Assembly (NCBI GenBank): GCA_029288315.1
Contig: JARIHL010000083.1
Location: 1-50,371, forward strand
Direction of reading: 5' to 3'
Length of the DNA stretch: 50,371 bases
Source of the DNA: Candidatus Saccharimonadota bacterium
GTDB taxonomy: Bacteria > Patescibacteriota > Saccharimonadia > Saccharimonadales > EFPC-124
Shown: positions 526-50,300 of the stretch, one piece after another
How positions within the stretch are numbered: position 1 is the first letter of the stretch
How the letters are laid out: every line of letters starts with the position of its first letter
The notes under the pieces: generated by a model
Database searches by the model: none
Told to the model about the DNA's origin: nothing
Seen by the model: the letters and a program-made list of their open reading frames with translations, nothing else
Position numbers and translations under genes: made by a program

Positions 526-634
526 TTGCCAACCCCTCTCACTGTCTCTGCCGAACCGTGTCATCTGATCAAACAGATCAGATGACACCGCCGGAAAGGC
601 GGCGTTCGGCAGAGACAGTGAGAGGGGTTGGCAA
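526..634. repeat. Long palindromic element with three-way-junction potential
   Basis: 31-bp perfect inverted repeat 526-556 / 604-634 (TTGCCAACCCCTCTCACTGTCTCTGCCGAAC). It encloses a 13-bp hairpin (558-570 / 576-588, GTGTCATCTGATC) and a short GC hairpin (CGCC-GGAAA-GGCG, 589-601). Confidence 0.9.
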
Positions 635-3650: not shown

Positions 3651-3694
3651 GAAGCTGCTTGGCGAGTGATGTGCATCACTCGCCAAGCAGCTTC
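3651..3694. terminator. Near-perfect 44-nt palindrome (terminator or protein-binding dyad)
   Basis: GAAGCTGCTTGGCGAGTGATG (3651-3671) TG CATCACTCGCCAAGCAGCTTC (3674-3694): 21-bp arms, 2-nt centre. Confidence 0.6.
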
Positions 3695-11770: not shown

Positions 11771-11880
11771 AAAAGTTGCACCTACGGAAAGTGTACTCTT
11801 CACCTAGGAAGCTCAATCTTCCGGGGAATGCAACGAGCTCTTTGCGAGCGGAGTCAAGATCAAATGCACTTCTGTAGGCC
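11771..11880 (-). repeat. R1 hairpin element, copy d (core on minus strand, imperfect arms)
   Basis: Reverse complement contains GACTCCGCTCGCAAAGAGCTCGTTGCATTCCCCGGAAGATTGAGCTTCC, matching the R1 core. Outer arms CCTACAGAAGTGCA / revcomp CCTACGGAAAGTGTA are imperfectly paired. Confidence 0.7.
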
Positions 11881-14716: not shown

Positions 14717-16741
14717 TTAAGCAATTATTGAATAATCAAAGTTTAGGATCAACCCCCCTCGCAGTGCGCTTCGGGTCGAAACCGTAAAGCTTGTGGTACT
14801 TCGTGCAGACACATACAGATCACCGGAAATAGCTGAGTGGTCGGCTAATGTAATAAACAGCGGCACAGCAGCATATGGCCGTGAGAAAGTTATGGTGGCA
14901 ATCGTGCCAGGTGCGGTTGGTGATGGGCGGACAGCGGCGGTGATATTGCCGGCTATATCGCGCACCTGCACACGGGGGTTAGCATAACTGACTTGCTCGC
15001 CAGCCGTGACTTTGGGCGGTGTGCCCACTGCGAGCGGACGCCCATTAGAATCAATAGCAAGACCCTGAATATTGTACGTTTCATCCTGAAATTCCATCAA
15101 TCGCAGCGTTGAAGTGCCCGTAGGTCTCACAATCGTCAAACCGCGATCCCCTTCAACCGCTGGCCGGATGAGCATAGCGATATTCGCGGTCGGCGTGGCG
15201 TTGATGCCTACGTAGCCTTTGCTGCCATCTATCTGAAACTTATTTGCCGCAAACCGTGCCGAGCCAGTACTGCCAACGATGCGCCATTTTTCAGTTGTAT
15301 AGTTATCTGAAAAACCCACCGTATCCACACCATTGAGCGTGTGCAAGGCGGGCCGTGTGGTATTATTGTCGATTTTTACCAAGTCTTTACTGGTTGTATT
15401 ATTAACAATTCTAAAAGAACCCGTGCTATCAAGTGGAACGCCAATACCACTGCTCGGGCTCGAGAGCATGACGACAGCCGCATCGCCTATAACGGTTTTG
15501 CCACGATTACTGACATTGCAAGACAGAATGACATCAAAGGCTTCGGGCTCAACTACCACAGCGGCTTCTACCGGGTCTTGCGATGGATAGTAGGTGCTAA
15601 GCTTGTAATACATATGCGGCCCACTGCGTACAATATGCGCGAGTGAATTGGCAATATTTACCTCAGTCCCCCATTGCACATAAACATCAGTCATAAAAAT
15701 ATGCGACCCGTGGTCTTCGATGGCATCCAGGGGTTTCACTTGATCGGGCTCGACCGCCATAACGGCGATATAGAGTTGATTGACAAATATCAGAGTGCTA
15801 CCTGGCATGATCTGGAAAGCGGGGCCCGCTGCGTGACGACTCTCCATTTTGCAGGATACAAAAAAGAAGCCGTTCAGGAGATGTGATGACCCATTCGCCC
15901 CGCCGTCAAGCCGTACCGCTCCATTACGCCAGCTCTCCCAGCGACAGCCGAGGAAGTGGATTTGATTAGTATTATCTTCACCATAGCCGAATTCGCCGGC
16001 TGGCATACTATTGCGGAAAAGCGCTGATGGCTGATCATTATTACCACAGTTTTCCCAACTACAGTTGTAAAACCGAGTATCCCAGACTTCTACAAAGTCA
16101 AGCGCCGCGCCGTCACAGTGTACAAAGCTAACATCCCTGTATACGAAATTGTCAGCAAAATAAGACCGTAGCAGGGTGCCAGGTTTGTAGTTGCCGATCA
16201 GCATAATATTGGTGACCGAGCAAAATTTAAGATGGCCATTTAGTGAGGCCGTACCACTAAAGTCAAGCAATGGGTCAGTGCCACTATGACGAACTAGTCG
16301 CGTGCCAAAGCGCGCTTCGCCCGTAATGGTGGTGCCATGTTTTTTAATCTTTAAGCCCCGCACTGGGTAGGTACCACGAGGGATCTCTACGACTCCTCCA
16401 TTTTCGATGCTGTCAATCGCCGCCTGAATCGCCACTGTATCATCAGTTACGCCATCGCCTTTGGCACCAAAATCGGTCACGTTGATACGCAATCGGGTGG
16501 TAGCCCGCGCTACTTCACTGGGATTTTTCCAGACTAAGCGGCTATCTTCGTTGGTGAGTACAAGATTTGTGATATTCTGGGTTGTCGGATTTTTGACATC
16601 TAAATCCCATAGCGTTACCGAATGCGGTGGTATACTCTCCACTCGTTGCGATCCGTCATCGTTGTGTGCCACCAATAAGTACTCATTTAATATACTCGCC
16701 CAGGCGTCGACGTCACCACCAGGCTCAGGCAATCGTGCCAC
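14717..16741 (-). CDS. Pectate-lyase-superfamily (beta-helix) surface/tailspike-like protein, paralog A
   Basis: MARLPEPGGDVDAWASILNEYLLVAHNDDGSQR; INVTDFGAKGDGVTDDTVAIQAAIDSIENGGVVEIPRGTYPVRGLKI; conserved C-terminus TFSRPYAAVPLFI...STRSALRGGLILNFDYSIIA. Confidence 0.9.
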   Translation of the reverse strand: MARLPEPGGDVDAWASILNEYLLVAHNDDGSQRVESIPPHSVTLWDLDVKNPTTQNITNLVLTNEDSRLVWKNPSEVARATTRLRINVTDFGAKGDGVTDDTVAIQAAIDSIENGGVVEIPRGTYPVRGLKIKKHGTTITGEARFGTRLVRHSGTDPLLDFSGTASLNGHLKFCSVTNIMLIGNYKPGTLLRSYFADNFVYRDVSFVHCDGAALDFVEVWDTRFYNCSWENCGNNDQPSALFRNSMPAGEFGYGEDNTNQIHFLGCRWESWRNGAVRLDGGANGSSHLLNGFFFVSCKMESRHAAGPAFQIMPGSTLIFVNQLYIAVMAVEPDQVKPLDAIEDHGSHIFMTDVYVQWGTEVNIANSLAHIVRSGPHMYYKLSTYYPSQDPVEAAVVVEPEAFDVILSCNVSNRGKTVIGDAAVVMLSSPSSGIGVPLDSTGSFRIVNNTTSKDLVKIDNNTTRPALHTLNGVDTVGFSDNYTTEKWRIVGSTGSARFAANKFQIDGSKGYVGINATPTANIAMLIRPAVEGDRGLTIVRPTGTSTLRLMEFQDETYNIQGLAIDSNGRPLAVGTPPKVTAGEQVSYANPRVQVRDIAGNITAAVRPSPTAPGTIATITFSRPYAAVPLFITLADHSAISGDLYVSARSTTSFTVSTRSALRGGLILNFDYSIIA

Positions 16742-16778
16742 TACTATCCCCTTTGTTCATTAGATTTTGTTGAAGTTA

Positions 16779-18800
16779 CTACGCTGTTACGGTGTAGTCA
16801 AAATTAAGTAGAGAGCCGCCGCGCAATGCGCTGCGAGTCGAAATAGTAAAGCCACTAGTGCCCCGCTGCGAGACATACAGATCGCCCACAGGAAGCGAGT
16901 GGTCATGGATAGCAATGGCAATGGGCACACTGGCGTAAGGCCGAGAGAAGGTCACGCTTGCTATAGTGCCTGCTGCAGTAGGGCTAGACCGAACGGCAGC
17001 CGTAATATTACCGGCGATGTCACGTACTTGTATGCCAGGGTTGGCATAGCTAACTTGCTCGCCTGGCGTTATCTCTGGTGGCGTACCGACCGCTACTGGG
17101 CGGCCGTTGGCGTCAAAAGCTTGGCCTTGGATATGATTTTTCTCATCTTGAAATTCTAGTAAGCGCTCGGTGGCGGTCTGCGACGGCCGGACGATTGTTA
17201 GCCCCCGATCGCTTTCGTCTGCCCGGATAAGCAGCGCGACACCAGTGAAAGGATCGGTATTAATCCCGACATATCCTTTCGTGCCCTCTACTTGAAATTT
17301 GCCAGATGCAAACCGCGCAGACCCATTAGCACCAACTACACGCCATTTCTCGGTCACATAATCGTCTGAAAAGCCCACAATATCAACACTGTTGAGTGTG
17401 TGAAGAGCCGGTCGTGTTGCGTTATTATCGATCTTTATTAAGTCTTTGCCAGTGGGGCTGGAGACGACACGAAAAGCACCTGTGTTTTCCAGTGGTATTG
17501 CTGTGCCAAGACGAGGGCTTGAAATCATGACTGATGCTACATCGCCTTTAAGTATTTTGCCGCGATTGCTGACCGTGCATGACACGATAACGTCGTCGGC
17601 TTCTGGCTCAGCTACGATCGCGGCCTCAACCGGATCACTCGTGGGGTAAAAAGTACTGAGTTTGTAATACATATGCGGTCCGCTGCGATAGATATGCGCT
17701 ACTGAATTGGCAATATTCACCTCACTCCCCCACTGCACATAGACATCAGTCATAAAAATATGCGAGCCGCGATCCTCGATAGCATCTAATGGTTTGGCCA
17801 AATCAGGTTCAGCTGCCATTATGGCGATGTAAAGCTGCGTGACGAAGATAATGGTGCTACCTTCCATGATTTGAAAGGCGGGCCCAGCGGCATAGCGAGT
17901 TTCCATTTTGCAGGTGCTAAAGAATATACCATTGAGCAGGCTTTTTGAGCCGTGGGCAGCACCGTCAATTTTGACTGCTCCATTACGCCAACTCTCCCAG
18001 CGGCACGAGATGAAATGAACTTGGTTGGTGTTATCGTCGCTAAAGCCAAATTCACCCTTAGACATACTGTTGCGAAGCAGTACCGCGGGCTTATCGTGCG
18101 TACCACAATTCTCCCATATACACAGGGTAAAACGAGTGTCCCAAACCTCTATAAAATCGGTCGCGACGTCGTTGCAGAAGGAAAAATGAACCTCGCGGTA
18201 ACTACAGGTATCGGCGTAATACGATCGCACCAAGACCCCTGCTTTTTTGCCCCCATCAAGCGTTATGCTGGCAATGGTGCAATAGCGTATATGATCACTC
18301 ATAGTGCCCTTGCCGCTGAGGTCGATAAGCGGCTCAGTACCGCTTAGCCTGACTAAGCGCGTACCCCAGCGGGAATCGCCGGTCAACAAAATACCATTTT
18401 TTCTGATCTTAAGGCCGCGGATCATATAAGTGCCGCGTGGTATTGCTACAACGCCGCCATTCTGGGCAAAATCGATTGCCTTTTGAATGGCCTCAGTATC
18501 GTCAGTCACGCCATCACCTTTGGCGCCGAAGTCAATGACGTTAATTTGCAGCCTAGTCATGGCTCGGAGTAATTCGCGGGGCTTCTTCCAGACGAGTTTA
18601 GAATCTTCGTTCGTTAAGATTAAATTGGTGAGTGACTGATCAGCCGGATTTTTAACGGCGAGGTCATGCAGTTCTACCGAGTGCGGCGGTATGCTTTCTA
18701 CCCGTTGCGACCCGTCATCGTTGTGTGCCACAAGTAAATACTCATTGAGTATCTCGGCCCAGGCGTTGACATCGCCACCAGGTTCAGGCAATCGTGCCAC
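16779..18800 (-). CDS. Pectate-lyase-superfamily paralog B
   Basis: Same architecture as paralog A: MARLPEPGGDVNAWAEILNEYLLVAHND...; DFGAKGDGVTDDTEAIQKAID; shared central block PLDAIEDRGSHIFMTDVYVQWG. Confidence 0.9.
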   Translation of the reverse strand: MARLPEPGGDVNAWAEILNEYLLVAHNDDGSQRVESIPPHSVELHDLAVKNPADQSLTNLILTNEDSKLVWKKPRELLRAMTRLQINVIDFGAKGDGVTDDTEAIQKAIDFAQNGGVVAIPRGTYMIRGLKIRKNGILLTGDSRWGTRLVRLSGTEPLIDLSGKGTMSDHIRYCTIASITLDGGKKAGVLVRSYYADTCSYREVHFSFCNDVATDFIEVWDTRFTLCIWENCGTHDKPAVLLRNSMSKGEFGFSDDNTNQVHFISCRWESWRNGAVKIDGAAHGSKSLLNGIFFSTCKMETRYAAGPAFQIMEGSTIIFVTQLYIAIMAAEPDLAKPLDAIEDRGSHIFMTDVYVQWGSEVNIANSVAHIYRSGPHMYYKLSTFYPTSDPVEAAIVAEPEADDVIVSCTVSNRGKILKGDVASVMISSPRLGTAIPLENTGAFRVVSSPTGKDLIKIDNNATRPALHTLNSVDIVGFSDDYVTEKWRVVGANGSARFASGKFQVEGTKGYVGINTDPFTGVALLIRADESDRGLTIVRPSQTATERLLEFQDEKNHIQGQAFDANGRPVAVGTPPEITPGEQVSYANPGIQVRDIAGNITAAVRSSPTAAGTIASVTFSRPYASVPIAIAIHDHSLPVGDLYVSQRGTSGFTISTRSALRGGSLLNFDYTVTA

Positions 18801-18826
18801 GAAATAGCTCCTTTCTTACTGCGGGG

Positions 18827-20851
18827 TTATGCAGTGACTGTATAGTCAAAATTTAATATAGAGCCGCCACGCAATGCGCTGCGGGTTGAAACGGTAAAGC
18901 TCATTGTACTGCGAGCCGATATATACAGATCACCTGAAATAACTGAATGGTCGTGAATAGCAATAGCAAGGGGCACGTTCGCATAGGCGCGTGAGAAGGT
19001 AATAGTTGCGATAGTGCCTGCGGCCGTGGGGCTTGCCCGCACTGCTGCGGTGATATTGCCGGCTATATCACGTACGCCAGCACGAGGGTTGGCATAGCTG
19101 GCTTGCGTACCAGCCGTGACTTTTGGGGGCGTACCAACCGCTACTGGGCGGCCGTGCGGGTCAATGGAGAGACCTTGGATATGATTTTCTTCGTCTTGAA
19201 ATTCCAATAGACGGCCAACCGCAGTAGATGAAGGCCGCACGATAGCCAGGCCGCGATCAGCGCCAGTTGCTGGGCGTATCAACAGGCCAATACCGGTAAA
19301 TGGCGTGGCGTTAATCCCGACGTAGCCCTTGGTGCTCTCTATTTGGAACTTGCCAGCAGCAAAGCGTGCCGAACCATTAGCTCCCACAATGCGCCATTTT
19401 TCAGTTATGTAGTTATCGGAGAAACCCACGGTGTCTAGGCTATTCAGGGTGTGTAGGGCTGGTCGCGTTGTATTATTATCAACTTTCACTAAATCTTTGT
19501 CAGTAACTGTCGAGACTATTCTAAATGTGCCAGTGGGGCCAATGGGCAGTGCTACCCCTCTGGTGGGGCTGGCAATCACCACCGAGGCGACATCGCCGAT
19601 GGTTTGTTTGCCGCGATTGACAATATTGCATGATACGATGACATCTTCTGCTTCTGGCTCAGCGATAATCGCAGCCTTCGTCGGATCCTCTGCTGGGTAA
19701 AAAGTGCTGAGTTTGTAATACATATGCGGCCCACTGCGCATGATATGAGCAAGTGAATTAGCGATTTTGATTTCTTCACCCCACTGCACATAGACATCAG
19801 TCATAAAAATATGCGAGCCATGGTCTTCGATGGCATCCAACGGTTTCACATTATCAGGATCAGCTGCCATCATAGCAATATAGAGTTGATTGACGAAAAC
19901 GATGGTGCTACCTGGCATGATCTGAAAAGCTGGGCCCGCTGCGTGACGGCTCTCCATCTTGCAAGAAACGAGAAATATGCCATTCAATAGATTCTTTGAC
20001 CCATTTGCCGCGCCATCAAGCCTCAAAGCTCCATTACGCCAGCTCTCCCAGCGGCAACCTAAGAAGTGAATTTGATTGGTATTGTCATTGCCATAGCCAA
20101 ATTGTCCTTCTGGCATGGTGTTTCGAAATAAGGTAGCGGGTTGGGCATTGCTGCCACAATTCTCCCAACTACAGTTATAAAACCTCGTATCCCACACCTC
20201 CACAAAATCAAGGGCTACCCCATCACAATGCACAAAACTGATATCGCGGTAGATAAAATTATCGGCGAATATGGATCGGAGTAACACCCCAGGTTTATAA
20301 TTACCGATCAGGGTAATATTAGTGACGGAGCAGAATTTTAGATGATTGTCTAGCGACCCCGTACCACTCATGTCTATCAGGGGTAGGGTGCCGCTAAGCC
20401 GGGAAAGCCGCGTGCCAAAACGCGCCTCGCCAGTGATGGTAATGCCATGTCGTTTTATTTTCAACCCACGGATCATATAGGTGCCACGCGGGATTAAGAT
20501 AATTCCTCCATTTTCGATACTGTCGATTGCCTTTTGAATGGCCTCAGTGTCGTCAGTCACGCCGTCGCCTTTGGCTCCAAAATCAGTCACGTTAATCTGT
20601 AGGCGCGTGTGTGCTCTGAGTACTTCGCCAGGGTTTTTCCACACTAACCTCTCGTCATCGTTAGTGAGCACCAGGTTGGTGGTTTTCTGGTCGACTGGAT
20701 TTTTCACATCTAGATCGTGAAGCTTCACGGAATGATTTGGAATACTGTCTTCGCGCTGTGTGCCATCGGTATTATGTGATACCAGTAAAAAGTCATTTAA
20801 TATACCTGCCCATTCGTCTACATCACCGCCAGGTTTGGGTAATCGTGCCAT
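18827..20851 (-). CDS. Pectate-lyase-superfamily paralog C
   Basis: MARLPKPGGDVDEWAGILNDFLLVSHNTDGTQR...; DFGAKGDGVTDDTEAIQKAIDSIENGG; PLDAIEDHGSHIFMTDVYVQWG. Confidence 0.9.
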   Translation of the reverse strand: MARLPKPGGDVDEWAGILNDFLLVSHNTDGTQREDSIPNHSVKLHDLDVKNPVDQKTTNLVLTNDDERLVWKNPGEVLRAHTRLQINVTDFGAKGDGVTDDTEAIQKAIDSIENGGIILIPRGTYMIRGLKIKRHGITITGEARFGTRLSRLSGTLPLIDMSGTGSLDNHLKFCSVTNITLIGNYKPGVLLRSIFADNFIYRDISFVHCDGVALDFVEVWDTRFYNCSWENCGSNAQPATLFRNTMPEGQFGYGNDNTNQIHFLGCRWESWRNGALRLDGAANGSKNLLNGIFLVSCKMESRHAAGPAFQIMPGSTIVFVNQLYIAMMAADPDNVKPLDAIEDHGSHIFMTDVYVQWGEEIKIANSLAHIMRSGPHMYYKLSTFYPAEDPTKAAIIAEPEAEDVIVSCNIVNRGKQTIGDVASVVIASPTRGVALPIGPTGTFRIVSTVTDKDLVKVDNNTTRPALHTLNSLDTVGFSDNYITEKWRIVGANGSARFAAGKFQIESTKGYVGINATPFTGIGLLIRPATGADRGLAIVRPSSTAVGRLLEFQDEENHIQGLSIDPHGRPVAVGTPPKVTAGTQASYANPRAGVRDIAGNITAAVRASPTAAGTIATITFSRAYANVPLAIAIHDHSVISGDLYISARSTMSFTVSTRSALRGGSILNFDYTVTA

Positions 20852-30138: not shown

Positions 30139-30206
30139 TTCATAGAAGAACACTCCGCTTGCAAAGAGCTCACTGCGTTCCCACCGGAAGGCCGAGCTTC
30201 TATGAA
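30139..30206. repeat. R1 hairpin element, copy c
   Basis: Arms TTCATAGAAG (30139-30148) / CTTCTATGAA (30197-30206) around core AACACTCCGCTTGCAAAGAGCTCACTGCGTTCCCACCGGAAGGCCGAG. Confidence 0.8.
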
Positions 30207-36152: not shown

Positions 36153-36273
36153 AATTCTGCACCACCCTCATGTTCTCTCCTTCCAGGGAAACAGCCCGCC
36201 CGCAAAAGCTCGTTGCCTTCCTCCCGGGAAGGTCGAGTCCTGGAAGGAGAGAACATGAGGGTGGTGCAGAATT
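36153..36273. repeat. R1 hairpin element, copy a
   Basis: Perfect 35-bp arms 36153-36187 (AATTCTGCACCACCCTCATGTTCTCTCCTTCCAGG) / 36239-36273 around 51-nt core GAAACAGCCCGCCCGCAAAAGCTCGTTGCCTTCCTCCCGGGAAGGTCGAGT. Confidence 0.95.
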
Positions 36274-36330
36274 AAACTTTGTATGATCCGAGACTCAAGC
36301 TAGAAATATTCAGAGTACAAGTATAACCAT

Positions 36331-37110
36331 TTAGTGATAGTAGAAAGCAGAGTCGACATTAAGCTTTACAGTGCAAAATGGTTCTTCAGCAAGGTCGAGC
36401 GCTATTTCGAGCTCTGTTTTATCGTGCAAGTTGCCCAATTCTAGGGTTTGCCAGGTGTCACTTCTTGCTGAAGGGATTGCTTTACCGTTATTGCCGTTAT
36501 GGGTAGGAGTGATAGTCATCAGAGCGGGTGCTACGCAAGAACCAGTTGAAGTTACACTTTCAAGCGTGAACTTAATGCTTAAATGCTGGTGTTGAGTGGC
36601 GGGCAGTAGTGCACGAGCTTTACTGCCATGTTTCATAATCGCATTATCTGATAATTGGATTTGGTAAGTAATATCTTCTCGTTCCCAATGCAAAAATGCC
36701 AACCTGCTTATAGTGGCCGGTATGAAGAAAGTGAGCAAGGCAAATACTACAACAATAATAGAACGCTGCCATGTAAAAACGGGTTGGGTGAAAGATTTTA
36801 TTGCTTTTGGCTGGTAGCTCGTTTGGGCCTGCTGCTCTTTTTTATGTAACCAAATAGGCACTAAAACCGTTGCCAAACTAAGGACTAAGCCAACAATAGT
36901 AACCACTAATCCCCATACATCAGCACGGGCTGCCCCTTCAGCACCCAGAGAATCAAGGTGTTGCCCAAGCCACAGAAGCTGCTGTAGCAATAGTAATCCA
37001 AGTCCGGCACAAATCCCGATAATTATAAAAAAGCGTAATCTTTTAATTTGTTGCCAACCCTGCTTGATATAAGCTGGGATTTTTTGCACTATCGTTAGTC
37101 TGTCCGGCAT
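36331..37110 (-). CDS. Membrane protein of unknown function
   Basis: TM segments LRFFIIIGICAGLGLLLLQQLLWLG, VWGLVVTIVGLVLSLATVLVPIWL, SIIVVVFALLTFFIPATIS; overlaps 37095-37994 by 16 bp. Confidence 0.75.
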   Translation of the reverse strand: MPDRLTIVQKIPAYIKQGWQQIKRLRFFIIIGICAGLGLLLLQQLLWLGQHLDSLGAEGAARADVWGLVVTIVGLVLSLATVLVPIWLHKKEQQAQTSYQPKAIKSFTQPVFTWQRSIIVVVFALLTFFIPATISRLAFLHWEREDITYQIQLSDNAIMKHGSKARALLPATQHQHLSIKFTLESVTSTGSCVAPALMTITPTHNGNNGKAIPSARSDTWQTLELGNLHDKTELEIALDLAEEPFCTVKLNVDSAFYYH

Positions 37111-37994
37111 GATTCAGTGTCAATATTGCTTGGGTCGGGTTTAAGTTCGCGGGCGTTGAGGGCTTGATCTACTTGAAGATTAGCACTAAAAGATGAGTTC
37201 CACTGCTTATTCACAAATTCTTTTAGCAACGTTGCTACTTGATGACATAATTCCATATTGTCTTTTGATAGGCCAATGCCGTACTTCTCATAGGTACCAG
37301 GAATAATAATTTCAGGTATAAATTTAAGGGCTTGATCAGCGTGGGCGTGCCCTTGCAAAACGGCAGCATCACTGGTAACAGCTGCTACATTAGCACTGGG
37401 ATTCTTCAGATCCTCAAGGCATTGCGAGAATGTATCTCGGTCAGTACTGATAAGCGGTATACTTTTTTTCAATTCATTTAATTTGTCTTTTGACGTTGAA
37501 CCATTTGTAACGCAAACAGTTTTGCTGGCTAGGTCATTCGTTGAGAGAATACTATCATCGTCTTTACGAACAAGTATCCCCTGATAGGTACGAATATACG
37601 GCCCGGCAAAAATAATACCACCAGCAATGCGTTTATCTGAAATTGAATAGGTACTCACAACTAGATCAACATATTTTGCGCGTAGGTTTTGGTCTCGAGC
37701 ATCAATTGTCATTGGTACAAAGTTTGGATGACGCCCTAAGCCTTCAGCAATAAAGTTGGCTAGATCGATATCAAAACCGTTGCGCTGGCCATCTCGTAAT
37801 GAGTTGAAGCCCGGGCTGTCATTAATATGCACGCCTATGTTGATTGCACTCGGTACCTGGCTTGTTGAGGGTTGGCTGCTATTTGGCCGGGACTTTAAAA
37901 ACAGGAAAAGGGCGACTATTACTATTGCACAAAAAAGCGAAATAACTATAAGTCTAATAGTTATTTTCTTCTTCGTTTGCTCTAATAGAGGCAA
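37095..37994 (-). CDS. Membrane-anchored solute-binding protein family 3-like (amino-acid-type) domain protein
   Basis: N-terminal TM LIVISLFCAIVIVALFLFL; INIGVHINDSPGFNSLRDGQRNGFDIDLANFIAEGLG...RDQNLRAKYVDLVVSTYSISDKRIAGGIIFAGPYIRTYQGILVRKDD. Confidence 0.85.
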   Translation of the reverse strand: MPLLEQTKKKITIRLIVISLFCAIVIVALFLFLKSRPNSSQPSTSQVPSAINIGVHINDSPGFNSLRDGQRNGFDIDLANFIAEGLGRHPNFVPMTIDARDQNLRAKYVDLVVSTYSISDKRIAGGIIFAGPYIRTYQGILVRKDDDSILSTNDLASKTVCVTNGSTSKDKLNELKKSIPLISTDRDTFSQCLEDLKNPSANVAAVTSDAAVLQGHAHADQALKFIPEIIIPGTYEKYGIGLSKDNMELCHQVATLLKEFVNKQWNSSFSANLQVDQALNARELKPDPSNIDTESCRTD

Positions 37995-38084
37995 TACTTT
38001 TATCCTATTTAACGTTCTAGCCTAATAATAGCGCCCTACGCAGAGCGCTACAATAGGTCTTTGTAAAAAATCCAACAAATAGAT

Positions 38085-39443
38085 TTATTGGCCATCCCAA
38101 CTTTTCAAAATGCGTAATTTCTGCCACGGTATATTGGGCATATTATCATAGTCCCATCGTATGCCCGCATTTTGATAGGCAGGGCTAACGACATCAGGGT
38201 TTTTTGTATCAAGCTCAAAACTAATTGCCATCTTGGCCCCACCGCAATCAATAGCGTAAGCACCATAACGCTGTAAGGCTTTGCCGATCATTTTTTCAAT
38301 AGGGCTGATGTTGGGAATGGTATCAAGATTGATAGTCGGGTCTAGCTGTACTCTCGCACCTTCTTCAATTGTTTCGTTACCATGGCCAGCCTTACCGTCA
38401 GTTTTACTTGCTGGAAAACGATATGTATCCGACCGACAAAGATTTGTTGAAAAAACCAACGCATGGTCAATAGATTTTCGTTCTACATCAGATAGTCTGA
38501 CGAGCCCTGCTAACCGGGAAACGCCTGCGCCCACCGAACTACCACCTACTCCGTTACCATCAATAGGTAACATTGCCCCCCATGAAGTCGTGGGCCGGCC
38601 GCCGTTCCATTTAAATTGCCAAAACTCCGCTGTTTGACGCGAGACCATATCAACAACAACCATTGCTTCATCAGAGCCTCTGTGTGGCTTCATAGCAACT
38701 GAAAGCGGAATGTTTTTACCTTCAAATGGACACGTGCCCCAAGGTTTTGTACAGGTGACTTTCTTTGTACCGGTAGCTATATTGGCATTATAGACCGGTA
38801 TTGCGAATTCATGCACTAGCGCGGCGGCCGGGCTCCCCGCTTTAGTTAGTTCATTGACAATAGAAGCATTATGTTGATCTAATTTTACGTTACTGGGGAT
38901 AGGAGCCTTCCAGGGAGAATCTTGACTAAATGGGCGCTCAAAAGCTTCGTCTACCGGTGGATTCACGATTGCTTTTGGCACGCTCCATTGTTGAGCAGTT
39001 GTGCCATTGCAGTAATAAATTTGGATAGGGTTGCCATTATCTATACGATTAAACTTGTTGTCTAAACAAAGCACTGAGACAGGATTAACAATAGCCCCAT
39101 TATCCTTCAAAGCCCATTGTTGATGAGTGCCACTGTTGCACTTCTCTATCTGTACCGGTGCTTCGGATTGCTTGCTTGCATTCTTCACCGCGAGGCACAT
39201 GCCTTGTGCACGAATAGTGCCGTCGCCAGGCAATTGCCACTGTCTTGAGGCATTATCTTGGCATTCGTCAAGCTGAACCGGATTATTTTTTACTTGCCCT
39301 GGCTTACTTGTTAGGCATTTGCCATTCGCATTTTTAATATAACCTTGGGGAACAGCTGCAGTTGCGATACTTGATAGTATGAGGCTGGTAATCCCGCTGA
39401 GAAAAAATGTACTCACAAACAATAAATAAATTTTGTGTTTCAT
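38085..39443 (-). CDS. Secreted ricin-type beta-trefoil lectin with uncharacterised C-terminal domain
   Basis: Signal peptide; GYIKNANGKCLTSKPGQVKNNPVQLDECQDNASRQWQL / GMCLAVKNASKQSEAPVQIEKCNSGTHQQWAL / VLCLDNKFNRIDNGNPIQIYYCNGTTAQQWSV = three beta-trefoil QxW repeats. Confidence 0.9.
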   Translation of the reverse strand: MKHKIYLLFVSTFFLSGITSLILSSIATAAVPQGYIKNANGKCLTSKPGQVKNNPVQLDECQDNASRQWQLPGDGTIRAQGMCLAVKNASKQSEAPVQIEKCNSGTHQQWALKDNGAIVNPVSVLCLDNKFNRIDNGNPIQIYYCNGTTAQQWSVPKAIVNPPVDEAFERPFSQDSPWKAPIPSNVKLDQHNASIVNELTKAGSPAAALVHEFAIPVYNANIATGTKKVTCTKPWGTCPFEGKNIPLSVAMKPHRGSDEAMVVVDMVSRQTAEFWQFKWNGGRPTTSWGAMLPIDGNGVGGSSVGAGVSRLAGLVRLSDVERKSIDHALVFSTNLCRSDTYRFPASKTDGKAGHGNETIEEGARVQLDPTINLDTIPNISPIEKMIGKALQRYGAYAIDCGGAKMAISFELDTKNPDVVSPAYQNAGIRWDYDNMPNIPWQKLRILKSWDGQ

Positions 39444-39544
39444 TTATTATCTCGATAATTATGGTTACAGCCTACTACGAAGGCTTATGTGTGGCAATAC
39501 AGAATGACTATGATTTTCTCATTATTTATGAGAAGCAACTCGTA

Positions 39545-40810
39545 TTAACGTTGCAAAAGAAGCCGCATAAGTGGCGGCGCTAAAAGAGATGTAACAACGG
39601 CAATCAGTACAATGATGGTATACATTTCAGTATTAAGTATGCCCAGCCGCACGCCAACGCTTGCGATTAGGATTTCAATAACCCCACGGGCATTCATAGC
39701 AGCGCCGATAGCTAGGGATTCACGCGTATTTAATCTGCTTAATCGTCCACCAAAAAAAGCTCCGGCAAATTTACCGACTATCGCTATACAAAGTACGATC
39801 AATGCACCGATAAGTACTACAGGCTCAGTTAAGGTAGTTAAGTCAATACGCAGGCCAGCGGTGGCAAAAAAGAGCGGCGCTAGCACTGATAATACGGTTG
39901 GTAAACGTATATGTTTAAAGTTGGGGTCTGACCCGATAAGTAAGCCGCACACAAAGGCACCAAAGACTGCCTCTAATCCCATGGCATGCGTAACGGCGGC
40001 AGATAAAAGAATCAAACTCGCTATTGCGGTGACCATAGGGCCATCGTCGCTACTACTACGGCGTACAAAGTCAAGCGTTTTGCGTATGAGCAGACGCCCA
40101 ATTGTCAGTGCAAAACCTATAACCAGCGCTACAAAGAATAATGAATGAATAATTGAGCCCATATGCACTCCACCAGTTGCCGCCATCGACGCCACCATGG
40201 CAAGCAATATCCAGCCAATGATGTCGTCAATAACACTGGCTGAGAGGGCGAGCCCTCCGACACGATGGTTCATGAGATTCATATCCATCAGCATTTTGGC
40301 GATGACTGGTAGAGCACTGACGCACATTGCTACACCGATAAACAGTGCAAACACAAAACGGTCAATATGTTCCGGAACCAGTGTGTCTGGTAATAAGTAG
40401 CCCGTTGCTATGCCCAGACAGAGGGGTATCAATAAGCCGCCGAGGCTGATTCGAAGTGCGGCTGGGCCATGCTTTTTAAGGAGCATTACATTCAACGCCA
40501 TGCCACTTAAGCCTACAAGCATAATGACTCCAATTTGTCCTACGGCATCGAGCAGATGAAATTGCTCTGCATTCGGCGGGAATAGCCAATAGAAAGCATC
40601 AGGAAAAAAATGTCCAAAAAGTGATGGCCCCAATAATACCCCTGCCCCCAGCTCACCCACAATGGAAGGCATATTAAAACGGCGAGCCAGTGCACCTAAC
40701 AGCAGAGCCAGCAGCAATAACATAGCTACTTGTGTCAAAAAAAGCAGGAGCACATAACTCTCAAGTGTCGGCACCGGGCCAACAGTAGTCGATCCAAATA
40801 ATAAAATCAT
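39545..40810 (-). CDS. Cation:proton antiporter (CPA2/Kef-like)
   Basis: ALARRFNMPSIVGELGAGVLLGPSLFGHFFPD...LSASVIDDIIGWILLA...AMNARGVIEILIASVGVRLGIL. Confidence 0.92.
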   Translation of the reverse strand: MILLFGSTTVGPVPTLESYVLLLFLTQVAMLLLLALLLGALARRFNMPSIVGELGAGVLLGPSLFGHFFPDAFYWLFPPNAEQFHLLDAVGQIGVIMLVGLSGMALNVMLLKKHGPAALRISLGGLLIPLCLGIATGYLLPDTLVPEHIDRFVFALFIGVAMCVSALPVIAKMLMDMNLMNHRVGGLALSASVIDDIIGWILLAMVASMAATGGVHMGSIIHSLFFVALVIGFALTIGRLLIRKTLDFVRRSSSDDGPMVTAIASLILLSAAVTHAMGLEAVFGAFVCGLLIGSDPNFKHIRLPTVLSVLAPLFFATAGLRIDLTTLTEPVVLIGALIVLCIAIVGKFAGAFFGGRLSRLNTRESLAIGAAMNARGVIEILIASVGVRLGILNTEMYTIIVLIAVVTSLLAPPLMRLLLQR

Positions 40811-41031
40811 TGTTAGCCTTATCGATGCTAGAATTCATAGTTAGTATACATGAGGATGCAGCTATACCGAACGAGGATACAAGTGACATATAATCAAGAA
40901 ACAAGCATAGTTCAACCCTCTGGATCCACTCAACACTGAGGTGTATGTTGACATAAAAAATTTATATGTTATTATTATATTCTGCCCATGCAGTACCTTG
41001 ACGTCTTATAACTGATTGGATGTGATGAACA

Positions 41032-42027
41032 GTGCTAACCAGCACACCTTTCTCGGTTGGCAATGAGGCCAGCCTGAGACGGCTTTTTCAGCACCTTGGT
41101 GTTGAATGGTCGGAAGATCCCGCAGTTAATGCTGAGACCGCTCAGCAACTGTGGCTCGGTGGCGAACACGGACAGAACGTAATCGAGTATCCACCAGCGT
41201 TGCTTGAAGGGGTCATCCCCTTCGGTGCTGCGATGGGAATGATCGATGCCACGCTTCCAGAGTTCGGTACCATCTTTGACGAAACATGTATCATTGGGGG
41301 AACACTCAATGCAAATGTACGGCGGTACGAGCTCATCAATTACCTGAGAAGGTGCCGTGCTTGTCAGTTCGGACCAATCGTGGGGTGGTATGGCCAGCGC
41401 CTCCGCCAGAAGCGTGAAGGGACGGTTGACCAACTTGTAGCGCGCCTACAAGCGCGTGATCCAGCGCTGCTCGACCACTCTTGGGTGGTGACGCAGCTGG
41501 AACTGGATGACGCTGACCCAAACCCGTGGCAGCGCCCGTTCGCTACCGAGTTTGAACTCGGCATTGCGGCCGCATTGCTCGAGTTTGGTCCTTTGCTACA
41601 CCTAACCTTCACACACCGCATCGAGGAGCCGGCACGTGTGCCCGGTGTCCCGGGGCGAACAATTCTGTGGCAGGGTTGGACAGGGCCGAATGACTCCAGT
41701 CTCCTGATGCTTAACTCCGCTGCTGTGCCGCGGAAAATGCAGGATCGGCCCTCAGATCCGCGCCACACCACGGCATCCAGTGCCAAAGAATGGTTGGAGA
41801 TTCTCACGCCCTTCACAGGCAGGCACATCGGAGTCGTTTCGGGAAATCCCCATACCGAACGCACCATCAGATCTGTTCTCCGTCAGTTCAAGCAGCTGGG
41901 GTATGATGACTTGATCATCACCCCCATGGGGACCAACGCAACCGATGCTGACAAGGTGGTGTTAGGCCGAACGATTCTCGGCGAGGTCGCCCGCTTGCTC
42001 GGCAGCGAGCAACGGGAAGTTGGCTGA
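41032..42027 (+). CDS. Hypothetical protein, C-terminus reminiscent of YdcF/DUF218-like fold; GC-rich gene
   Basis: 331-aa ORF (GTG start), followed by strong hairpin 42048-42083. C-terminal GRHIGVVSGNPHTERTIRSVLRQFKQLGYDDLIITPMG. Promoter-like TTGACA upstream (GTATGTTGACATAAAAAATTTATATG). Confidence 0.55.
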   Translation: MLTSTPFSVGNEASLRRLFQHLGVEWSEDPAVNAETAQQLWLGGEHGQNVIEYPPALLEGVIPFGAAMGMIDATLPEFGTIFDETCIIGGTLNANVRRYELINYLRRCRACQFGPIVGWYGQRLRQKREGTVDQLVARLQARDPALLDHSWVVTQLELDDADPNPWQRPFATEFELGIAAALLEFGPLLHLTFTHRIEEPARVPGVPGRTILWQGWTGPNDSSLLMLNSAAVPRKMQDRPSDPRHTTASSAKEWLEILTPFTGRHIGVVSGNPHTERTIRSVLRQFKQLGYDDLIITPMGTNATDADKVVLGRTILGEVARLLGSEQREVG

Positions 42028-42047
42028 GCAAGTTCAGCAACGTCAAG

Positions 42048-42083
42048 GTGGGGCCTGCGCGCAAAACAGCGCGCAGGCCCCAC
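42048..42083 (+). terminator. Strong GC hairpin downstream of the 41032 gene
   Basis: GTGGGGCCTGCGCGC (42048-42062) AAAACA GCGCGCAGGCCCCAC (42069-42083). Confidence 0.75.
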
Positions 42084-42175
42084 ATCTGTTTCAAATCAGG
42101 AGTTACCTGATTTTTTTTATTTCACTAATATTTATTTCAAATAAGCTCTAGAACTTCTCATGCTACAATACGCAT

Positions 42176-42691
42176 ATGGCTGCGCAACAGCGAAATTGGG
42201 GTTTGGTGGGTATGGTTATATTGTCTCTGCTGGTGGTGGGAACTTTTGGTGCTGGCGCTGGATATCTATGGTGGCAGGAACGCACACAACGTCTGCGGGC
42301 TGAACAAACAGTACAAGATATTCAGGGCAAGTATGATCGGCTTCAACAAGAATGCGATGTCATGAAGCTCGGCTCAGCAGAAGGTACACCGTTAAATCAA
42401 TCTGGCCAACCGCCAGCAGTGGCGGCTGTTGAAGCTCAAGCAGATGCCCCACGTTGTGAACGGCCGAGCTTACAGCCATTTAAAGAAACTTTGCGCAAAC
42501 AAGACGCAAGATTTTTTGAAAAAATCAAAGATGGTGATGTACTAATCATCTACCCACAGAGCAAAAGATTGTATGTCTATCGGCAAAGCACCGGCGAGAT
42601 TATTACCCAAGCCGTTCTAACTGATTCAGAGGTAAAAACAAATCTGCCAACAGCCAACTTTTCACTGCAGGGAATAGTACAAACTCCCTAA
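42176..42691 (+). CDS. N-terminally membrane-anchored hypothetical protein
   Basis: MAAQQRNWGLVGMVILSLLVVGTFGAGAGYLWWQERTQRLRAEQTVQDIQGKYDRLQQECDVMK: TM then coiled coil then small domain. Confidence 0.7.
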   Translation: MAAQQRNWGLVGMVILSLLVVGTFGAGAGYLWWQERTQRLRAEQTVQDIQGKYDRLQQECDVMKLGSAEGTPLNQSGQPPAVAAVEAQADAPRCERPSLQPFKETLRKQDARFFEKIKDGDVLIIYPQSKRLYVYRQSTGEIITQAVLTDSEVKTNLPTANFSLQGIVQTP

Positions 42692-43222
42692 GTTACAAAA
42701 CATCCTAATATTGAAGATTGGCTAGTAACTTCGGTGTAGCCATAGGTAGCCGTGGTAGTTGCCTTCTGCCAAGGAAGACAATCTTCCGGTGTACGGTTTC
42801 TTTTGTTCGGAGATGCCACCCGACATTGGCAGGGGCAGCAAATATCACACCCGGTCAACAATCAAACAGTGGTCGCCGTTGGTGCTATGGGTCGTTCGAA
42901 TCATGAGACGCAAGATGTGGCGAGAGCATCAGGCGTATATTTTTTGACCTCGCATCAGCGAAAAGAAACAGATTCTAGCCAAGTGGCTAACAGTCCTCAG
43001 GGCCAGGTTGCGCATTGAATGCATCTTCGACCACCTTAAAAATAGCTACTCCTGGTCATTTCGTTTCCTATGATAGTGAATATGGTTACGCCACTCACTA
43101 TGTGCGGGTTTCTTACCAGCTTATGTGAAGTTTTGAGGGTGAGGCTGATCAGTAGCTTGACAAAATGCTTATGTGTGCTATTGTTGTTAATACCATCATC
43201 ACGATCAGAAGGGGACCAGCAA

Positions 43223-43411
43223 ATGAGTCGAGAGGTTGTGGGAGCTCACATCAGCTCAGACGGTACTGTCACTCAGGGCAATGACAACACAGCCAGTATC
43301 GAAACCGGCCCCGGCCACGTGGCTGTAACTCAGTCACGGCAAGTAGTTGGGAGCGATGAGACGGTGATAGGGGCTGGCCTTGGCGGCCGGCCTCGTCGCA
43401 AAAACATCTAG
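43223..43411 (+). CDS. Small hydrophilic protein (62 aa), Gly/Thr/Val-rich
   Basis: ATG with upstream AAGGGGACC; MSREVVGAHISSDGTVTQGNDNTASIETGPGHVAVTQSRQVVGSDETVIGAGLGGRPRRKNI. Sigma70-like TTGACA-16-TATTGT upstream and a clear intrinsic terminator downstream. Confidence 0.6.
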   Translation: MSREVVGAHISSDGTVTQGNDNTASIETGPGHVAVTQSRQVVGSDETVIGAGLGGRPRRKNI

Positions 43412-43428
43412 ATCGGAACGTGATGCTT

Positions 43429-43460
43429 TAGGCCCTGCCTCGCAGGGCCTATCATTTTTT
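43429..43460 (+). terminator. Intrinsic terminator
   Basis: TAGGCCCTGC (43429-43438) CTC GCAGGGCCTA (43442-43451) TCATTTTTT. Confidence 0.92.
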
Positions 43461-43468
43461 AGAAGTTT

Positions 43469-44848
43469 CTAACTAAGTTGCTTGGCTAGTTCGGTAGCAA
43501 TATTCTGATATCCAGATACTGACATACATAACACAACGTCGCCAGCTTTAGCATCATGAGTTATGAGCTGAATCAATTTGCTCCGGTCTGGTTCAAAGAT
43601 CGCTTTATTATCGAGTCCAGCTACAACATCGCTGCCTGATACGGTCTTTTCATGAGCAGCTTCGCGAGCACCTTCAACATCAGTAATGTAGACGACATCA
43701 GCTTCATTAAAAGCGGCTTGGAATTCAGTTAACAATGCTTTTGTGCGTGAATAGGTGTGCGGGCGAAACATCACAACGAGCCGTCTATCAGGAAAGTGTA
43801 GTTTTGCTGCTTCAATAGTCGTTTTTACTTCTGTGGGATGGTGCGCATAATCGTCGATGACGGTAATGGCGTTATCTGGTTTCGTAAGAATATTAAACCG
43901 CCGGTAGGTGCCTTTAAAACGCGCAGCGGCTTCTTTGATTTGCTCAAAACTCAAACCTTCTCCGAAGGTCACGGCTATAGCCGCTAATACATTTAACACA
44001 TTATGCCGCCCATAAAGTGGTACGGTTATACGGCCGATCGTAGTTTGGCGGGTCTTCACATCGAACTCGATACCATTTGGCGTAAAAGCGATATTCTCGG
44101 CTATATAATCACCTTCATCAAGGCCGTACGTTACAACTTTGCAAGTGGCTGCAGCGGCTACTTGTGCTACGGTACTACTGCCTGACCACGCCACAAGCTG
44201 GCCATTTTGTGGTAGCGCTTTCACCACTTCTGTAAAACGCTTTATAACTGATGCTAAATCTGGATAGACATCTGGGTGATCGTGCTCTACAGAAGTAAGT
44301 ACTAATACATCAGGGTGATAGTATTGTAATTTGGCTCTATCTTCTAGATCAGAGGCCTTGTATTCATCCCCTTCTAATACGACGACTTTTGAGCCTTCTA
44401 TGCGCACGCTTGAGTCGAAATTAAATGGCTGAATCCCGATCAAAAAATCCGGCTGGCGTCCCGCACATTCCAATAACCAGGTAATAAAGGAAGTAGTAGT
44501 TGTCTTGCCATGGGTGCCTGCCACCACAATAGATCGTTCATCAGCGGTCAACTCCCCGACTAATTGCGCCCATGATTTAATAGCAATGCCGCGTCGCTTG
44601 GCCTCTATGATAGCTGGATATTGAGGGGTAGCGTAGGCACCAGTAATAATGACATCGGTTACGCCGTCAAGTTGGCTGGTTTCGAATGTCTTACTCCACG
44701 GAATGTTGTGTTCATCTAGCCAGTCGCTGCCAGGAGGCACCGCCCCTTCATCGAGGCCACTGACGATATAACCGTGCTCACGTGCCATGAGCGCCAATCC
44801 ACGAATTGCATGGCCAGCGATGCCAATAAAATAGAAATGACTCTTCAT
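43469..44848 (-). CDS. murC: Mur ligase family protein (MurC/Mpl-like)
   Basis: YFIGIAGHAIRGLALMAREHGYIVSGLDEG; VVAGTHGKTTTTSFITWLLECAG; VLEGDEYKASDLEDRAKLQYYHPDVLVLTSVEHDHPDVYPDL; YAHHPTEVKTTIEAAKLHFPDRRLVVMFRPHTYSRTKALL. Confidence 0.85.
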   Translation of the reverse strand: MKSHFYFIGIAGHAIRGLALMAREHGYIVSGLDEGAVPPGSDWLDEHNIPWSKTFETSQLDGVTDVIITGAYATPQYPAIIEAKRRGIAIKSWAQLVGELTADERSIVVAGTHGKTTTTSFITWLLECAGRQPDFLIGIQPFNFDSSVRIEGSKVVVLEGDEYKASDLEDRAKLQYYHPDVLVLTSVEHDHPDVYPDLASVIKRFTEVVKALPQNGQLVAWSGSSTVAQVAAAATCKVVTYGLDEGDYIAENIAFTPNGIEFDVKTRQTTIGRITVPLYGRHNVLNVLAAIAVTFGEGLSFEQIKEAAARFKGTYRRFNILTKPDNAITVIDDYAHHPTEVKTTIEAAKLHFPDRRLVVMFRPHTYSRTKALLTEFQAAFNEADVVYITDVEGAREAAHEKTVSGSDVVAGLDNKAIFEPDRSKLIQLITHDAKAGDVVLCMSVSGYQNIATELAKQLS

Positions 44849-44903
44849 TCAGTAGATCTCCTTAATAATCTAAACTCTAACATAAGATAGTTTATCTTGA
44901 CAT

Positions 44904-45025
44904 GGCCTACGCTACCCATTTCTACTGCCGTTTCCAGGGAAACAGTCCGCTCGCAAAAGCTCGCTGCCTTCCTCCCGGGAAGGTCGAGTCCCTGGAAACG
45001 GCAGTAGAAATGGGTAGCGTAGGCC
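44904..45025. repeat. R1 hairpin element, copy b
   Basis: Perfect 36-bp arms 44904-44939 (GGCCTACGCTACCCATTTCTACTGCCGTTTCCAGGG) / 44990-45025 around core AAACAGTCCGCTCGCAAAAGCTCGCTGCCTTCCTCCCGGGAAGGTCGAGT, almost identical to copy a. Confidence 0.95.
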
Positions 45026-46212: not shown

Positions 46213-46336
46213 GAGCGTCATCCTTCCTGAGGTTGTCTGCGGCAACTGCACGAAAGGTTTTCGTGCATGCTACCACAGACAATCTGCAAGATGGATTTAT
46301 TAAATCATGGCTCAATATGATTTACAATTTTCTATA

Positions 46337-46475
46337 ATGGCATAGCAAATTCAAATGGAAGGGGTCCTGTCACGCCATCCGCCCCTAAAATTTTTTTATG
46401 AGTACATAAAAAACATTTTTGGGGCAGCCCCGTGGCGTGCCACCCCAGTGTTTAATTTGAATTTTGCTATGCCAT
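46337..46475. repeat. R2 hairpin element, copy 1
   Basis: Outer arms ATGGCATAGCAAATTCAAAT (46337-46356) / ATTTGAATTTTGCTATGCCAT (46455-46475) around core GGAAGGGGTCCTGTCACGCCATCCGCCCCTAAAATTTTTTTATGAGTACATAAAAAACATTTTTGGGGCAGCCCCGTGGCGTGCCACCCC. Confidence 0.85.
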
Positions 46476-46515
46476 TTATATAAAATAGCTGCTTCCTCAG
46501 ATGAAATAGATCACT

Positions 46516-50211: not shown

Positions 50212-50233
50212 AAATCTGACTCAAAACCCAATA

Positions 50234-50300
50234 GAAGGAGTCCTCTCACGCCATCCGCCCCTAAAATGTTTTTTCTTGTATTCAAGAAAAAACATTTTAG
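50234..50300. repeat. R2 hairpin element, copy 2 (outer boundary not determined; near window end)
   Basis: GAAGGAGTCCTCTCACGCCATCCGCCCCTAAAAT matches R2 copy 1, followed by a perfect 18-bp hairpin CTAAAATGTTTTTTCTTG (50261-50278) / CAAGAAAAAACATTTTAG (50283-50300). Confidence 0.85.

Follow-up and report, generated by a model that had tools for sequence, protein, structure and literature searches.

Mobile hairpin-core elements with perfect, copy-specific arms in a Saccharimonadota genome: a probable role for fold-back copying of flanking DNA

Introduction

Prokaryotic MITEs have been reviewed (PMC10969869), and those of IS4 type are short, non-coding and multicopy, with 9-bp target duplications and the terminal repeats of a resident insertion sequence (IS), all of which is also true of R2, one of three element families described here. 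The terminal repeats of MITEs are, however, expected to be common to the copies, whereas the arms of the other two families, R1 and R3, are copy-specific and have no detectable target duplications. Hairpins made by template switching were described for RNA stems (PMC8794818); there, as in quasipalindrome-associated mutation (PMC7202029), a single event of reverse-complement copying creates or mends a perfect stem, and the elements considered here would be alike in this respect. They differ in scale (25-44 bp) and in recurring around dispersed mobile cores throughout one genome. Abundant perfect inverted repeats are present in the mitochondria of Nematomorpha, and their authors suggest template switching or repeat conversion (PMC6649704); these coding palindromes lie within animal mitochondrial genes, and the sections of that paper used here note no mobile conserved core. 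Dispersed hairpins that spread in intergenic DNA are also found in sponge mitochondria (PMC2800124), but in these the stems are conserved and the loops vary, whereas the present elements have a conserved core and variable arms.

The window is a stretch of 50,371 nucleotides from a Candidatus Saccharimonadota bacterium, the genome of which comprises 1.2 Mb in 89 contigs. The following elements lie in it:

526-634, plus strand: R2 element, 31-bp perfect arms, 47-nt T-shaped core with two internal hairpins
11771-11880, minus strand: R1 copy 4, diverged core 11812-11855, degenerate arms
30139-30206, plus strand: R1 copy 3, 10-bp arms 30139-30148 and 30197-30206, diverged core 30149-30196
36153-36187, plus strand: R1 copy 1, 5' arm, 35 bp, perfect inverted repeat
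36188-36238, plus strand: R1 copy 1, core with internal hairpin, AACAG...TCGAG at 36190-36237
36239-36273, plus strand: R1 copy 1, 3' arm, 35 bp, perfect inverted repeat
44904-44940, plus strand: R1 copy 2, 5' arm, 37 bp, perfect inverted repeat
44941-44988, plus strand: R1 copy 2, core, the same sequence as cores elsewhere that bear unrelated arms
44989-45025, plus strand: R1 copy 2, 3' arm, 37 bp, perfect inverted repeat
46336-46476, minus strand: R3 element, arms of about 21-22 bp (one indel), core of about 98 nt at 46357-46454
50230-50300, plus strand: partial R3 element near the contig end

R1 in the window and in the genome

An earlier, sequence-only reading of the window had described R1 as a core of about 50 nt, nearly the same at 36153-36273 and 44904-45025 and able to fold on itself. 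The near identity of the two cores (51 and 48 nt, respectively) is borne out, and fold computation agrees with the self-folding; as ssDNA the two elements fold far better than shuffled sequence (z of -12.8 and -14.3). Both pairs of arms are perfect, of 35 bp as reported for the first element and of 37 bp, not 36, for the second. The two sets of arms, read as unrelated, are not wholly so, as both copies belong to a pyrimidine-rich subfamily whose arms have a weak consensus. The two further copies proposed for the window are real, with arms of 10 bp (30139) or degenerate (11771), diverged cores and a position between divergent genes. The claim that a gene start always lies 5' of the core fails genome-wide, where this side holds about equal numbers of gene stops and starts. 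In both main window copies neither arm is directly followed by the T run of an intrinsic terminator.

The genome-wide search for more copies that had been proposed was run, and 40 BLAST matches to the core, together with the two weak window copies, give at least 42 dispersed copies. Nearly every copy is flanked by its own perfect, copy-specific arms; those of 22 bp or more have a mean length of 34.7 bp (range 23-44), the arms having been analysed mostly on about 420 kb of stretches around elements and on the loci of core matches. The arm consensus of the pyrimidine-rich subfamily, which includes both main window copies, resembles IS ends, and no target duplication was seen in it. Neither this resemblance nor a target duplication is seen in the other R1 arms or in any R3 arm: at the arm boundaries of R1 and R3, direct repeats are not in excess over simulation. 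Beyond about 8-13 nt from the core, R3 arms and most R1 arms are unrelated, that is, terminal repeats are not common to the copies.

Among 98 relatives and 380 genomes of the phylum, R1 was found in the window's own genome only. An exact-pattern search of about 85,000 genomes returned 41 stretches, none with the element, and viral contigs searched with R1, R2 and R3 patterns gave no match. The Y1_Tnp domain (PF01797), looked for as the mark of REP/REPIN elements with a Y1 (RAYT) transposase, and RVT_1 (PF00078), looked for as that of retroelements, are absent from the genome, with positive controls in both cases.

The R2 and R3 families

The sequence-only reading covered R1; at least two other core families have a like anatomy, and both came to light when about 420 kb were scanned for perfect inverted repeats. 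R1, R2 and R3 are three unrelated core families with one anatomy, amounting to roughly a hundred elements in the genome. The R2 core is unrelated in sequence to that of R1. R2 matches were found in 35 places (a few of them weak or self matches); the family has at least 34 non-coding copies of about 105 nt each. Eight copies have 9-bp target duplications with at least 7 of 9 positions matching (9/9 in one) at the terminal-repeat boundary. The terminal motif CTGCACCACCCTCA is common to R2 and to a 1211-bp IS with the ends CTGCCCCACCCTCACTTC (G000:C47:1-1211, the same as L203:1-1211), the 365-aa frame of which matches the DDE_Tnp_1 transposase. Because of the target duplications and the terminal motif shared with the resident IS, we call R2 a MITE of this IS4-type insertion sequence. 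That the arms are a pre-existing genomic motif was considered and rejected, since CTGCACCACCCTCA occurs mostly within elements or IS ends. Of the 26 R2 copies lacking a target duplication, 9 stay palindromic for 3-10 bp beyond the terminal repeat, where 1 in 64 would be expected (binomial p 1e-10), compared with none of the eight that have one; when the groups are set directly against each other, the difference is weak (Fisher p 0.08).

The core of R3 is about 100 nt long and occurs in about 25 distinct places. Most R3 cores are only 1-3 differences apart in about 88 nt, yet their arms are unrelated. R3-like elements are present in 14 other genomes of the order, one of which, G144 (assembled in two contigs), has 28 matches; in the copies read, arms of about 19 bp are conserved and shared. 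Copy-specific R3 arms are therefore a trait seen in the window's genome and not one of the R3 core.

In two relatives an R3-like element lies in frame within a glutamyl-tRNA synthetase-like (gltX-like) gene (L280 and L282, about 1500-1580), and in this in-frame position it resembles the palindromic elements of Rickettsia. The latter belong to an unrelated lineage and, to our knowledge, their description does not include copy-specific arms.

Perfect arms are not the product of RNA pairing selection

One of the two explanations offered in the sequence-only reading was a structured RNA class under pairing selection. It could be supported by the strong folding and by RNAalifold, which finds double changes in 11 of 17 consensus pairs. 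These double changes are, however, almost wholly in the arms, and arms are unrelated even between identical cores: in six R1 copies the same 48-nt core is flanked by perfect arms that are unrelated from copy to copy. R1 arms contain 1085 Watson-Crick, 14 A-C, 6 G-T and 2 other pairs (a few copies of variant core length being badly anchored and under-counted), and in R2 arms the mismatches number 2 and 2 against 562 Watson-Crick pairs. In neither family do the mismatches show the G-U excess that RNA pairing selection should favour. The position of the elements relative to genes is also inconsistent. A match to a known Rfam family, which the earlier reading had allowed for, was looked for and is absent: no family reaches gathering score in the window, and none was found for R3 among the R3 loci at E up to 1. 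The perfect arms are not due to RNA pairing selection, because identical cores bear unrelated arms and the mismatches lack a G-U excess, and a structured RNA family with stems kept paired by compensatory change is a highly improbable account of the elements as a whole.

Source of the arms

The arms are mosaics. An inner stretch is common to another copy and is followed by an abrupt loss of similarity (against the nearest relative copy, 23 shared positions and then 2 of 18, or 20 shared and then 4 of 18), while the palindrome is perfect across the join. Inner R1 arms are common within subfamilies. The copies C16 and C81 share entire arms at different sites, and arms can therefore also travel with the core.

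Whether an arm is native to its site was judged from the ends of flanking genes, compared with orthologues on the main contig of the relative G002. At L149 the genes for a polyprenyl synthase (GGPPS) and UppS terminate at the same length as the G002 orthologues, with stops within the arms, and UppS ends in RRLGK* (RRYGK* in G002). At L139 an ABC exporter ends in GGVITD* (GGFIEE* in G002), the last 14 nt of the gene being part of the right arm, and at L129 Fur ends in CQAE* (CQRH* in G002), with 7 nt in the right arm. If both arms are assumed to be foreign, the same genes read through or end differently; therefore one of the two arms would, in its outer part if not throughout, be the site's own DNA. 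Judged by these gene ends, the native arm appears to be sometimes the left one and sometimes the right one. From the perfect complementarity of the arms we infer that the native arm was copied, in inverted orientation, into the opposite one. A model in which the left arm is always native was rejected, given that the right arm bears the native gene end at L139 and probably at L129 and L150. Palindromic target duplications were rejected as the arm source too, with no excess over simulation. When arms were searched against the part of the genome of about 420 kb, there were no donor sites among the matches listed.

The second explanation of the sequence-only reading, an insertion that duplicates flanking DNA in inverted orientation, thus survives in part: native gene ends in one arm and the mosaic arms speak for flank copying, which may take place at insertion or soon afterwards.

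Palindromes outside the families and the lack of detectable SbcD

Perfect palindromes with a score of 16 or more number 224 per Mb in this genome, 6.6 in G002 and 13.7 in G001; over the closest relative with a good assembly the excess is about 30-fold. With the element families set aside, the densities are 43, 5.5 and 13.7 per Mb, respectively (43 vs 5.5, p 6e-6); 18 such core-less palindromes, with loops up to 20, lie in 420 kb. SbcD was undetected in 25 genomes of the order (the window's genome and 24 relatives), whereas 13 of 14 control genomes scored. Long palindromes may be tolerated where it is lacking; its absence is not sufficient, because SbcD is also undetected in relatives with few palindromes, and the difference in density from G002 is not explained by it.

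Several individual palindromes can be listed here. A core-less perfect palindrome of 21 bp with a 2-nt loop lies in the window at 3651-3694. The 48-bp zero-loop palindrome GAATATATACCCAGGTAAATTTTT has four copies (L106:11588-11635, L113:18065-18112, L117:2231-2278 and L122:50-97), and L111:15429-15528 may be a related fourth family. At L105:3767-3809 a perfect palindrome begins at the ACCA end of an apparent tRNA gene.

How the arms might be made

The explanation that we consider probable is that R1, R2 and R3 are miniature non-coding mobile elements, the mobile part of which would be the small hairpin-forming core, and that fold-back template switching on the flanking DNA makes or lengthens their arms. 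The long perfect arms would be DNA-level palindromes rather than selected RNA stems. One arm of each element, or its outer part at any rate, would be the target's own flank; the nascent strand would fold back on the hairpin, copy about 25-44 nt by template switching and return to its template, and the reverse-complement copy of the flank so produced would be the other arm. Dispersed copies, arms that differ from site to site, native gene ends in arms, the palindromic extension of R2, the excess of palindromes and the failure to detect SbcD are in favour of this proposal; fold-back synthesis itself, as well as the survival of palindromes through the lack of SbcCD, is what we infer from them. 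Fold-back as a slow process after insertion is opposed by the long arms of nearly all complete R1 and R3 copies. Flank copying is difficult at L149, where the gene ends on both sides look native and about 4 nt shared at the join are needed, and at L142 an inserted core and arm would account for the reading frame better than an overwritten flank.

A different proposal, rather unlikely in our estimate, is a new mode of insertion in which mobilisation obligatorily adds the core and an inverted duplicate of about 25-44 nt of target flank, so that the arms are a matter of transposition chemistry. In a form specific to R1 and R3, which we regard as doubtful, the core would prime fold-back synthesis on the target strand and each insertion would make a perfect inverted 25-44 nt duplicate of the flank; elements could then pick up new terminal repeats, such as those of an IS next to them, and become mobile by another route. 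Copying at insertion is a serious rival because long arms are near-universal in complete R1 and R3 copies and because the mismatches in R3 arms (0.015 per pair, near twice the private core substitution rate of 0.010 per site) are in the ratio expected if arms form once and then decay. The frame and start-codon context at L142 fit insertion of core plus arm between the Shine-Dalgarno sequence and codon 2. However, the same anatomy occurs with unrelated cores, in some R2 copies the arms stop at the terminal repeat and the 9-bp target duplication is of the ordinary kind, the R3-like arms of G144 are conserved and shared, and palindromes that belong to no element are in excess as well. Insertion of cores into the centres of pre-existing perfect palindromes is improbable. 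Core-less perfect palindromes do exist at the density given above, and gene stops are often near both outer arm ends, but of the 61 palindromes in 420 kb that score 24 or more, none is core-less, short-looped and outside the families, and unrelated targets would not give the sharing of inner R1 arms within subfamilies. That the elements are artefacts of sequencing or assembly (chimeric inverted repeats, for example) seems extremely improbable: the contig of L021 (G000:C31) ends in the Nextera mosaic-end CTGTCTCTTATACACATCT within an R1 arm and some copies are at contig ends, but dozens lie inside contigs, always centred on one of a few cores, and hairpin arms are present in the copies read of the two-contig G144 assembly.

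Perfectly covarying stems are usually taken as a sign of RNA selection, and here the paired change is apparently made at the level of DNA. If a DNA process has acted in dozens of independent events in one genome, this genome offers a natural setting in which to study how palindromes arise and persist through template switching in replication. Arms apparently copied from the flank suggest that small pieces of mobile DNA can have long perfect palindromes built around them by replication. This is relevant to the ways in which such elements could acquire new ends and to what becomes possible when the SbcCD hairpin nuclease is lacking.

Other observations

A match resembling a cobalamin riboswitch was seen at L129:2216-2384, below gathering score (44.2 vs 50 bits). 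In the window, positions 14717-20851 hold three tandem paralogous genes of about 674 codons.
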